Source: Deltaproteobacteria bacterium
Lineage (GTDB): Bacteria > Myxococcota > Myxococcia > Myxococcales > 40CM-4-68-19
Direction of reading: 5' to 3'
DNA length: 57,105 nucleotides
NCBI GenBank assembly: GCA_005879535.1
Contig: VBKI01000077.1
Location: forward strand, 1 to 57,105
The position numbers were made by a program, and so were the translations under genes. Shown one piece after another: positions 38,048-46,272 of the stretch (within the stretch, counting starts at the first letter, position 1; each line of letters opens with the position of its first letter). The notes below the pieces were generated by a model that was not told the DNA's origin, did no database searches, and saw nothing but the letters and a program-made list of their open reading frames with translations.

Positions 38048-39508
38048 ATGCCCCTGCCCCTTATCGCCGAGCTGAAGCGCCGGCGCGTCTTTCGCGCGCT
38101 GGTCGCTTACGGCGGCATCCGCGGCCGGAGCAAATCTTCTGATGCGCCACCCTCGATCGTCGTCCTCCCGTTCGTGAACCTGAGCGCCGAAAGGGAAAAT
38201 GAATACTTCTCCGACGGGATGACGGAGGAGATCATCAATGCGCTCGCGAACATCGAGGGATTGCGGGTGGTGGCCCGCACCTCGGCATTTTCCTTCAAAG
38301 GCAAGAACGTCGACATCCGCAAGATCGGCGAGGAGCTCAAAGTGTCCACCGTGCTCGAGGGCACGGTCCGGCGCCAGGGCAACCAGCTGCGCGTCGCCGC
38401 ACAGCTCATTGCCGCCAACGACGGCTATCACCTGTGGTCGAAGACGTACGACCGGGAGCTGAACGACATGTTCCTGGTCGAGGACGACGTGGCCCGTGCC
38501 ATCGTGCAGGCGCTCAAGCCGAAGCTGGTGCAACCGACGGCGATGGTCGAGCGCACGACCGACAGCAGCGAAGCGCACGACTTGTACCTGAAAGGCCGCT
38601 ATTTGTGGAACCAGCGCTCGAAGGAGGGTCTCACCAGGGCCATTGCCCTGTTCGAGCGGGCAATCGCCCTCGACGCGGGTTACTCGCTGGCCCATTCCGG
38701 CCTGGCGGACTGCTACAACGTTCTGGGGGACTACGGAGGAACGCAAGGCGAGGAGGTTGCGTCCAAAGGAAAGACGCATGCGCTCGCGGCCGTGAAACTC
38801 GACGATGGACTCGCGGAAGGTCACGCATCACTGGCGGCGTACATGGACCGTGAATGCGACTGGGATGGCGCGAACCGCGAGTTCACGCGCGCCATCGAGT
38901 TGAGGCCGGGGTACGCGACGGCTCATCACTGGTACGGTTTCACTCTTCTCGGCCAGGGGCGGCTGGCCGAAGCGCGAGCAGAGGCAGAACGGGCGCGACA
39001 GCTCGATCCCACCTCCGTCATCATCAACACGTTCCTCGTCACCGTGCTGCACCACGCCGGTGAATACGATGCCGCCGTCGATCAGGCGCAAAAAACGCTC
39101 GACCTGAACCCGGGATTCGACCTCGCACGCGTGTTTCTCGCCTATTCCCATCTTCGCGCCGGCAGGATCGCGGACGCACTCGTGGCCCTGGACAGGGCAC
39201 CTGCGCCTTCGTCGCAGCTTTCAGTCGTGCGCGCGCATCTGCTCGCCGCGTCCGGCGCGACGACCGATGCGAGCCGTATGCTGACCGAGGTCGAGGCGCA
39301 TTTCGACGCCAACCCGGTGCCACGTGGATCCCTCGCGTTGGCTCATCTCGCGCTCGGCGAGGAGGACGCGGCATTCGTTTGGTTGGAAAAGGGCTTCGTG
39401 GCGCGCGACCAATCCGTGCGCACGATCAAGTTGAACCCGATGTGGGAGCCGATACGCTCGGACCCACGATATCGCGCCCTGCTCAAACGGATGAATCTCG
39501 AGCGCTGA
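38048..39508 (+). CDS. FlgO/TPR protein of the adenylate-cyclase-associated type, membrane region deleted
   Basis: A 486-residue protein. It starts with IAELKRRRVFRALVAYG, normally followed by one or more membrane spans in this family, but here that region is missing and residue 24 runs straight into a short polar linker and the FlgO-like domain (PSIVVLPFVNLSAE, YFSDGMTEEIINAL, GTVRRQGNQLRVAAQLI). About seven TPR repeats occupy 175-470. Relatives are often fused to class III cyclases or winged-helix domains; none is present here. Codon third positions look slightly less GC-rich than in neighbours. It overlaps the end of ribD by 26 bp tail to tail. Confidence 0.8.
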   Translation: MPLPLIAELKRRRVFRALVAYGGIRGRSKSSDAPPSIVVLPFVNLSAERENEYFSDGMTEEIINALANIEGLRVVARTSAFSFKGKNVDIRKIGEELKVSTVLEGTVRRQGNQLRVAAQLIAANDGYHLWSKTYDRELNDMFLVEDDVARAIVQALKPKLVQPTAMVERTTDSSEAHDLYLKGRYLWNQRSKEGLTRAIALFERAIALDAGYSLAHSGLADCYNVLGDYGGTQGEEVASKGKTHALAAVKLDDGLAEGHASLAAYMDRECDWDGANREFTRAIELRPGYATAHHWYGFTLLGQGRLAEARAEAERARQLDPTSVIINTFLVTVLHHAGEYDAAVDQAQKTLDLNPGFDLARVFLAYSHLRAGRIADALVALDRAPAPSSQLSVVRAHLLAASGATTDASRMLTEVEAHFDANPVPRGSLALAHLALGEEDAAFVWLEKGFVARDQSVRTIKLNPMWEPIRSDPRYRALLKRMNLER

Positions 39509-43498: not shown

Positions 43499-43732
43499 CT
43501 ATTTCTTGTGCTCGTTGATGAAGTTCACCGCGTCCTGGACCGTCTTGATGTGCTCGGCCTCCTCGTCGGGGATCTCGACCTCGAACTCCTCTTCCATCGC
43601 CATCACCAGCTCGACGATGTCCAGCGAGTCGGCGCCGAGGTCCTCGATGAAGGCGGATTCCGCCTTGATCTCGTCCTCGCCGACCCCGAGCTGCTCCGCG
43701 ATGATGCTCTTGACCTTCGCCTCGACGGACAT
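43499..43732 (-). CDS. acpP: acyl carrier protein
   Basis: A 77-residue acidic four-helix protein with Ser36 in [11 protein letters not shown], the site for 4'-phosphopantetheine. It carries growing acyl chains. ATG 43732 is preceded by AGGAT; the longer frame to 43816 is not needed. A promoter-like pair lies just upstream, giving acpP-fabF a possible start of their own. Confidence 0.97.
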
Positions 43733-43773: not shown

Positions 43774-43801
43774 CTTGTAGCACGCTTTTGCGCGCTCGCA
43801 A
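43774..43801 (-). promoter_or_regulatory. candidate acpP promoter
   Basis: On the minus strand TTGCGA (43801-43796), 16 bp, then TACAAG (43779-43774); each matches four of six consensus bases. Transcription would start about 35 nt before the acpP ATG. It lies in the 87-bp gap after the Cys-rich lipoprotein gene. Confidence 0.4.
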
Positions 43802-43819: not shown

Positions 43820-44329
43820 TTATTGACAGACTCCATTGATGCACCGGTTCTCGGCGGGGCAGTCGAGGTCGCTGCTGCAGCGCAGTGACGCTGGACGGGT
43901 GACGCACTGGCCGTAGTAGCACGACTCCGGGTAGATGCAGTCCCGGTTTTCGGTACAGCTTGCCACCGCCTTCCCTCCTCTGTTGCAGATGCCGACCTTG
44001 CAGACTTCCCCTTCCTTGCAATCCTTGTGGCCGGCGCACTGCACCGTGCAGTGACCGTTGCGGCAGCGATACGAGTCGAGGCACTGGGGCTGACCGTCCG
44101 GGCCCGGCTGCGTGCCGTCGCCCTCGCAGTCTCCGAACGACTGGAACTGACAAGTACGGCCCTGCACTGCGACGCCGCCCTCCGCCGGCGCCGAGCCGTC
44201 GACGCATTCGAGCCCATACGCGCAGTCGAAATTCCGGGTGCAGGCGTCGTTCCGCATCTTCTTCTTCAGCTCGCCCTGACCCTGGCACGCGGCGAGCGCG
44301 AGGAGCGCGGCGACAGCCGCCTGCTTCAC
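43820..44329 (-). CDS. Cys-rich lipoprotein in the position of fabG
   Basis: A 169-residue protein with a lipobox leader (VAALLALAAC, Cys15) and about twenty Cys in repeats such as CTRNFDCAYGLEC, CEGDGTQ, CRNGHCTVQCAGHKDC, CTENRDCIYPESC and CSSDLDCPAENRCINGVC. This spacing recalls myxobacterial Cys-rich, EGF-like or Dickkopf-like secreted proteins and implies a disulphide-rich outer domain. The GTG start overlaps the fabD stop (GTGA). It occupies the slot normally taken by fabG in fabD-fabG-acpP. A relation to fatty-acid synthesis is not expected; its role is unknown. Confidence 0.75.
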   Translation of the reverse strand: MKQAAVAALLALAACQGQGELKKKMRNDACTRNFDCAYGLECVDGSAPAEGGVAVQGRTCQFQSFGDCEGDGTQPGPDGQPQCLDSYRCRNGHCTVQCAGHKDCKEGEVCKVGICNRGGKAVASCTENRDCIYPESCYYGQCVTRPASLRCSSDLDCPAENRCINGVCQ

Positions 44330-45279
44330 TTGAACACCTCCCGCAACACGGTCGACAGACCCGCCGGGTCCTCCACCGGATAAGCGCGCAAGCCCTTGTC
44401 GATGCGCCGCACCAAACCGGAAAGCACCTTGCCTGGGCCGATCTCGACCACGGTGTCGACGCCGTTCACGGCCATCTTCTGGATCGTCTCGACCCAGCGG
44501 ACGGCGGCGGTGACCTGCGTGAGCAGCAGCGCCACGATCCGCGCCGGATCGGTGTTGGGCTCGGCGGTGGCGTTGGCGATCACCGGCGCATTCGGCTGCT
44601 TGATCTGGATGCCGCCCAGCACTTCCGCGAGCTTCGGCTGCACCGGGGACATGAGCGAACAGTGGAAGGGAGCGCTGACCGGCAAGGGCACGGCGCGCTT
44701 TGCGCCCTTCGCCTTGCACACCGCGATCGCGCGGTCCACCGCCGCCGCGTGCCCGGCGATGACGGTCTGCTCCGGCGAATTGTAGTTGGCGGGCTCCACC
44801 ACCTTGCCGGGTTCGTGCTCGCGCGCCTCGGCGCATGCCTCCTTCACCCGCTGCGGCTCGAGGCCGAGGATCGCGGCCATGGCCCCTTCGCCCGCCGGGA
44901 CGGCGTCCTGCATGAAGGTGCCACGCGCGCGCACGGCCCGCACTCCGTCCTGCAGGCTCATCGATCCCGCGGCCACCAGCGCCGAGTACTCGCCCAGCGA
45001 ATGGCCTGCGTAGAACGCGGGAAACTGGAAACCGCCGCCAGCTTCACGCATCAGGACGCGGTGGACCGCCGCGGAGACCGCGAGGATCGCCGGCTGTGTG
45101 TTGGCAGTCCTGCGCAGATCGTCTTCCGGACCTTCGAACATCAGCTTGAGCAGCCCGCCGCCGAGCGCCGCGTCGGCTTCGTCGAGGGCGGCGCGCGCCG
45201 CCGGAAACGCCTCGGCGAGCGCCTGTCCCATCCCCACGTACTGTGATCCCTGCCCGGGAAATACGAATGCGAGCTTCAT
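44326..45279 (-). CDS. fabD: malonyl-CoA:ACP transacylase
   Basis: A 317-residue enzyme: FPGQGSQYVGMG at the N-terminus, nucleophile Ser94 in AGHSLGEYSAL, the malonyl-binding Arg region VRARGTFMQDA and the catalytic His in PVSAPFHCSLM. It loads malonyl groups on ACP. It begins 3 bp after fabH. Confidence 0.96.
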   Translation of the reverse strand: MKLAFVFPGQGSQYVGMGQALAEAFPAARAALDEADAALGGGLLKLMFEGPEDDLRRTANTQPAILAVSAAVHRVLMREAGGGFQFPAFYAGHSLGEYSALVAAGSMSLQDGVRAVRARGTFMQDAVPAGEGAMAAILGLEPQRVKEACAEAREHEPGKVVEPANYNSPEQTVIAGHAAAVDRAIAVCKAKGAKRAVPLPVSAPFHCSLMSPVQPKLAEVLGGIQIKQPNAPVIANATAEPNTDPARIVALLLTQVTAAVRWVETIQKMAVNGVDTVVEIGPGKVLSGLVRRIDKGLRAYPVEDPAGLSTVLREVFK

Positions 45280-45282
45280 GGG

Positions 45283-46272
45283 TCACCAGCGCATGAGCGC
45301 GCTGCCCCAGGCCATTCCGCCGCCGATCGCCATCATCAGGATCAGATCGCCGTCCTTGAGCTTGCCGGCGCGGTTGGCCTGATCGAGCGTGAGCGGCACC
45401 GAGGCGGAAGAAGTGTTGCCCACCTGATCGATGTTCACCTCGCACTTCTCCAACGGAATCTCCAGCCGCTTCATCACCGCGTCGAGGATGCGGAGGTTCG
45501 CCTGGTGCGCGATCACGTAGTCGACGTCCTTCGGCTGATAGCCGTTCCGCTGCAGCGCCTCGCGCGAGGCGGCCTCGAGCACCCGGACGGCCGTCTTGTA
45601 GACCTCGCGGCCGTTCATCTTGATGAACTGCTCGCGCTTCTCCCAGACGTCGGGACTGAACGGCTTCTGGCTTCCGCCGCCGGGGATCTTGAGGATGTCC
45701 GCCTGCGTCCCGTCGGTGTACAGGTGGGTGGAGAGGATTCCACGGTCCGGCCGAGTCTCGGGGACGACGACCATCGCGCCGGCGGCGTCGCCGAAGAGCA
45801 CGCAGGTGGCCCGGTCCTTCCAGTCCGAGATCCGGGTGAGAAGCTCGGCGCCGATCACCAGCACCTTCTTCGCCGTACCGCCGCGGAGGAAGCTGTCGGC
45901 GATGGAGAGCGCGTACAGGGAGCCTGCACACGCCGCGCTGACGTCGAAGCAGACCGCCTTCTTCGCTCCGATCTTCGCCTGCACGAGCGCCGCCGCTGAA
46001 GGAAACGGCATGTCGGGCGTCACGGTGCCGACGACGATCATGTCGAGCTCCGCCGGCGCGATTCCGGCCATCTCCAGCGCCTTGTGCGAGGCGGCCGTCG
46101 CCATGTCGCTGGTCGCCTCGTCCGGGGCCGCGATGCGACGCGCGCCAATCCCGGTGCGCTCGCGGATCCAGGCGTCGCTGGTGTTGATGCCGAATTCCTT
46201 CACCAGGTCATCGTTCGTGACCTTGCGGGCGGGGAGATACGTGCCGGTTCCGACGATGCGCGAGCGTTGCAT
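45283..46272 (-). CDS. fabH: 3-oxoacyl-ACP synthase III
   Basis: A 329-residue initiating condensing enzyme with Cys115 (VSAACAGSLYAL), His256 (IAHQANLRIL) and Asn286 (VGNTSSASVPL). It starts fatty-acid synthesis from acetyl- or branched acyl-CoA. The 48-bp gap to plsX contains CTCCGC/GCGGAG arms, a perfect 10-bp palindrome GCGTATACGC and a minus-strand TTGACG, so an internal promoter is possible but not convincing. Confidence 0.96.
   Translation of the reverse strand: MQRSRIVGTGTYLPARKVTNDDLVKEFGINTSDAWIRERTGIGARRIAAPDEATSDMATAASHKALEMAGIAPAELDMIVVGTVTPDMPFPSAAALVQAKIGAKKAVCFDVSAACAGSLYALSIADSFLRGGTAKKVLVIGAELLTRISDWKDRATCVLFGDAAGAMVVVPETRPDRGILSTHLYTDGTQADILKIPGGGSQKPFSPDVWEKREQFIKMNGREVYKTAVRVLEAASREALQRNGYQPKDVDYVIAHQANLRILDAVMKRLEIPLEKCEVNIDQVGNTSSASVPLTLDQANRAGKLKDGDLILMMAIGGGMAWGSALMRW

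Follow-up and report, generated by a model that had tools for sequence, protein, structure and literature searches.

Within the window, the whole stretch of 57,105 nucleotides that was analysed, the minus strand carries a fatty-acid synthesis (fab) cluster in the order DUF177/yceD-like gene (48221–47583), rpmF, plsX, fabH, fabD, LIP, acpP, fabF, glyA and nrdR, where LIP denotes a gene for a cysteine-rich lipoprotein. The features of the central part of the cluster are as follows.

45283..46272, minus strand: fabH, named by translation and cluster position, without a family-model scan
44326..45279, minus strand: fabD, TIGR00128 at 347.9 bits against a cut-off of 260.9
44326..44329, minus strand: GTGA, in which the LIP start overlaps the fabD stop, with an NTGA overlap at 11 of 12 homologous loci
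43820..44329, minus strand: LIP, cysteine-rich lipoprotein CDS of 169 aa with a GTG start; 12 homologues, 20 invariant cysteines plus the lipobox cysteine
44285..44329, minus strand: predicted signal peptide (14 codons) and lipobox LAA/C with Gln at +2, from the translation and homologue alignment
43901..44041, minus strand: best-scoring stretch for DUF7107 (PF23416), residues 97–143, 41.9 bits against the Pfam gathering cut-off of 24.6
43774..43801, minus strand: promoter-like block TTGCGA-N16-TACAAG in the LIP–acpP interval, conserved across the window's family; putative acpP promoter
43499..43732, minus strand: acpP, passing the curated NCBIfam model NF002148
42245..43489, minus strand: fabF, named by translation and cluster position, without a family-model scan

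Compared with the canonical fab cluster (E. coli order, as given in the available part of PMC2837039), the window shares all genes but fabG, together with their order and strand, and differs in having LIP in the place of fabG and a fabG orthologue at another locus. No fabG was found between fabD and acpP or anywhere else in the window's cluster, in agreement with a sequence-only reading of this DNA, which had also correctly described the slot as occupied by a cysteine-rich lipoprotein gene joined to fabD through GTGA. Across the window's family AcpP was 96–100% identical to the window copy (43499–43732), with FabD of the same loci at 63–90%. Elsewhere in the window, a plus-strand TPR/adenylate-cyclase-like ORF (38048–39508) lies between minus-strand ribD-like and ribE-like ORFs, these names being taken from translations.

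Translation of the LIP ORF gave a protein beginning with VKQAAVAALLALAAC, followed by QGQGE, and running through to CINGVCQ and the stop codon. As in a lipoprotein, a short signal peptide ends in a lipobox cysteine (LALAAC, residues 10–15, read by eye), and the column of this cysteine is kept in 11 of the 12 aligned homologues, the twelfth (from genome G011) having LHGC displaced by a few residues. The remaining 20 cysteines are invariant across the 12 homologues, and the cysteines of LIP are likely to form disulphides. The +2 position is neither Asp nor Lys in any of the 12. Among M. xanthus lipoproteins, an inner-membrane location is associated with Lys at +2 and a matrix location with Ala at +7, the outer membrane being unmarked (available text of PMC3222651). 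Given that the window's LIP has neither Lys at +2 nor Ala at +7, the outer membrane is its default location, and LIP is predicted to reside there. Over five pairs chosen among nine loci, dN/dS was 0.13–0.34 for LIP and 0.06–0.17 for fabD, indicating that LIP is under purifying selection that is looser than that on fabD. These values, together with the 20 invariant cysteines, argue that the LIP ORF does not exist by chance.

The gene is single copy in its genome (search at E≤0.001). All 12 homologues matched DUF7107 at E≤0.01, an entry for which Pfam names no function and on which no paper was found in the literature searched. Membership of Dickkopf_N (PF04706) was just missed, at 23.7 bits below the Pfam gathering cut-off of 25. 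LIP is alike in domain to the DUF7107/Dickkopf_N-like cysteine-rich modules but is set apart from them by its lipobox, its bacterial host and its fab-operon setting. Structure prediction gave a weak model (mean pLDDT 67.5) that returned no Foldseek match at E≤0.001, and the best solved structure reached by the LIP sequence had an E of only 0.13. A biological parallel may lie in TraA, whose TIGR04201 Myxo_Cys_RPT repeats have been proposed to form a rigid stalk (PMC3325183, in the portion available) and which, like LIP, belongs to the cysteine-rich envelope proteins of myxobacteria. Unlike those repeats, LIP scored below the curated TIGR04201 cut-off (12.7 bits against 25), and no match to PA14 or MYXO-CTERM was present in Pfam and NCBIfam scans. 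The stalk proposed for such repeats suggests, by analogy, that LIP may act in the envelope as a disulphide-rich module for binding or as a stalk.

Homologues of LIP were found at E≤1e-12 in 12 of 195 genomes sampled from the phylum and not in the remaining 183 at that threshold. Ten belong to the window's family (f1, uncultured soil myxobacteria; 12 genomes in separate assemblies), one to another family (G015, f5) and one to a sister family (G018, f8). The order fabD-LIP-acpP-fabF was present in all ten LIP-bearing f1 genomes, that is in 10 of the 11 f1 genomes with an assembled cluster, and the fabD-LIP link spans four genera of the family. In the exception, G009 (Umea1_bin-0479), acpP follows fabD after about 150 bases and both LIP and fabG are absent (L054 5930–6088), while no assembled fabD of cluster type was found in G006. 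The sequence-only reading had asked whether relatives carry the same lipoprotein at the slot, which these ten genomes do, and had named relatives with a directly adjacent fabG together with an assembly break at the locus as its possible refuter, the break being contradicted by the recurrence of the junction in separate assemblies. Although the f1 members are draft assemblies, an assembly or annotation artefact has practically no probability and is refuted by the same junction lying on separate contigs in 10 of the 12 genomes, with an open frame and conserved cysteines.

Beyond f1, G015 carries fabD-LIP-fabG-acpP-fabF, and G018 carries rpmF-fabD-LIP followed by a convergent gene, the rest of the cluster being gone. 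Outside f1 the slot was surveyed in 20 loci fetched from the order, G015 among them, and in 80 named loci, which is part of an order of 145 genomes. Among the fetched loci, fabD-fabG-acpP was found in 16, LIP with fabG in G015, and neither gene in three genomes of family f3 (G013, G020 and G025), where fabD and acpP are separated by about 230–320 bases; in the fourth f3 genome, G032, fabG still adjoins fabD. No clear gene was seen in the three f3 gaps (L195 7728–7978, L196 7973–8202 and L197 5157–5480). Among the named loci, which were the top 80 of 459 and overlap with the f1 genomes, fabG was the next recognised gene after fabD in 70, fabD-LIP-acpP was present in eight, fabD-LIP-fabG-acpP in one (L073, the G015 sequence) and neither LIP nor fabG in one (L054). 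Loci L020, L073 and L203 represent one genome (G015), stretches of L020 being found in L073, and L054, L207 and L239 were taken as one genome (G009) from their matching gene layout. About 750 bases with two small frames lie between fabD and fabG in G012 (L194), and extra DNA at the fabD/fabG junction was observed in unrelated lineages (L194 5258–6005, L086 5915–6461, L104 5885–6879 and L111 5885–7014).

The GTG start codon of LIP overlaps the TGA stop codon of fabD in the window, reading AAGTGAAG. Ten of the 12 LIP loci have GTGA and one, G015, has ATGA; the overlap is missing from G011, where a 10-nt gap separates fabD from the nearest in-frame ATG of LIP. Since a 4-nt NTGA overlap allows a ribosome ending fabD to restart on LIP, LIP is probably translationally coupled to fabD and would be made in proportion to FabD. 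Neither the overlap nor LIP itself is indispensable, as G011 lacks the former and G009 the latter. Downstream of LIP, nine f1 loci share, by eye, a block before acpP that ends in TACAAG (TAAAAG in one), with TTG 22 bases before this type of end in seven of the nine. The same promoter-like block precedes acpP in G011, and G009 has a TATGAC version. A consensus promoter scan called none, the block falling below its threshold, and in the f6, f9 and f5 loci inspected the fabG-acpP gap is short and held no match to the block pattern. The block is a candidate acpP promoter, from which acpP-fabF would be transcribed separately, and it suggests that LIP belongs with the rpmF…fabD part rather than with acpP-fabF. 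The earlier proposal that the lipoprotein is made in step with fatty-acid synthesis, drawn from the overlap alone, would then be narrowed to that upstream part. In this way a small cysteine-rich envelope module, for binding or as a stalk, would be made with the growth-linked rpmF-plsX-fabH-fabD transcript.

The reductase was expected to be encoded elsewhere, and a search of the window's genome located a slot-type FabG orthologue on another contig (G000:C69:47009-47749, minus strand). With the G015 slot FabG as query, relatives were recovered in 8 of the 12 f1 genomes at 58–63% identity, the slot FabGs of the order lying at 57–68% to the same query. In a tree built with 15 of 18 slot FabGs (those of L189, L202 and L204 left out), the eight relocated f1 FabGs formed one clade (100/100) that joined the slot FabGs of the order and was separate from the other SDR paralogues. 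The C69 gene just fails TIGR01830 membership (291.8 bits, curated cut-off 297.75). By eye it retains TGASRGIG and what we take to be the Ser-Tyr-Lys triad, and it looks to encode an intact slot-type reductase. Another gene, C102:30793-31506, was rejected as the missing fabG despite passing the same cut-off with the best score of the genome (303.1 bits), its close copies having been found only in G000 and G008 and its position in the tree being among non-slot paralogues. The neighbours of the C69 gene are a PanE/ApbA-like (ketopantoate-reductase-like) gene, a YfhO-like gene, nuoA, nuoC and nuoD, with fabG and the ketopantoate-reductase-like gene upstream of the nuo genes. This pairing recurs in several relocated-fabG loci, as do shared protein clusters around the gene in several genomes, although G009 and G011 have few of these clusters.

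Relocated FabG was not found in four of the 12 f1 genomes (G003, G006, G007 and G010). As the G007 genome is 98% complete, it may rely on another paralogue, and an older second FabG lineage (G018 C24, G013 C114, G015 C23 and others) may serve where the slot FabG is gone. In the three f3 genomes with neither gene (L195, L196 and L197), the proteins that best match slot FabG fall in this second lineage, at 45–48% identity. Simple gene calling missed relocated fabG in L231 and L235; in L231 (7007–7759) the gene is covered on both strands by long open frames that overlap, which is how simple gene callers can miss it.

In an rpoB tree of 25 of the 28 genomes (G011, G032 and G100 gave no match), G018 was placed beside f1 with support of 96/95, and f1, f8 and f5 fell on one side of a weakly supported branch, at 71/80, or 70/71 when FabD was added in a tree that also omitted G190. 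Because G015 holds LIP and fabG together, the entry of LIP and the exit of fabG look like two distinct events. Most likely, one insertion placed LIP between fabD and fabG and fabG departed later. The fabD/fabG junction may be a place that tolerates insertions, and LIP would have entered there in an ancestor shared by the three families, which belong to one order. The later departure of fabG in f1 would have left the gene alone near the ketopantoate-reductase-like gene ahead of the nuo genes, a loss from the middle of the cluster that would be tolerable because acpP-fabF would be separately transcribed from the conserved block. LIP would then have been lost again in G009.

Two other histories were weighed against this order of events. 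Horizontal passage of LIP among f1, f8 and f5, in place of inheritance from one insertion, draws on the weak branch support for grouping the three families and on f5 and f8 being one genome each. We consider it unlikely, as the position after fabD and the 4-nt overlap type are common to all three families, a layout that transfer of LIP alone would hardly give, and the protein identities drop with kinship from 79 to 36%. A one-step replacement, in which the incoming lipoprotein gene displaced fabG at the slot, would account for LIP sitting exactly in the place of fabG in 10 of 11 assembled f1 clusters; it is highly improbable given that both genes share the slot in G015 and that fabG is absent without LIP in G009 and three of the four f3 genomes. 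The term 'replaced' used in the sequence-only reading therefore holds for the place LIP occupies but not for a single step, nor is the absence of fabG unique to LIP carriers. Since fabG left the slot elsewhere without LIP, LIP need not have caused its exit. Taken together, we judge it probable that a single-copy, outer-membrane-directed LIP was inserted between fabD and fabG and kept the NTGA overlap, and that fabG later left.

The separation of fabG from its cluster has a precedent in Kuenenia stuttgartiensis, where fabF, fabD and fabH are kustd1386, 1388 and 1389 and fabG is kuste3341 (PMC2649909, as far as available). That case resembles the window in that the reductase gene lies away from a cluster whose other members are grouped, and differs in phylum and in that the available text mentions no lipoprotein for the cluster. 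Fab clusters without fabG are already known, then, whereas the literature searched gave no example of a lipoprotein in the slot, no title or abstract describing a fab cluster with a lipoprotein gene.

A more far-reaching role for LIP, as a direct partner or sensor of fatty-acid synthesis in lipid supply to the envelope with the fabD link under selection, would fit the retention of that link after cluster break-up in G018 and across the four f1 genera. This role is quite doubtful, because G009 lives without LIP, the 4-nt overlap by itself makes the two genes hard to separate, and no LIP domain points to lipids. It is equally improbable that LIP serves fatty-acid synthesis as a dedicated envelope partner whose coupling to fabD matches its amount to malonyl-ACP supply. 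Were that so, membrane growth would be linked to surface-protein insertion by a connection kept through break-up of the cluster. The fabD-LIP pair is a natural case in which to test whether translation of an outer-membrane lipoprotein can be tied to that of FabD. The rearrangement of the operon is genuine though modest, and its steps can be read as a series: no LIP, LIP beside fabG, fabG moved out and LIP lost again. Such a series would show how a foreign gene can be taken up, and a resident gene given up, by an operon that is essential and usually stable.
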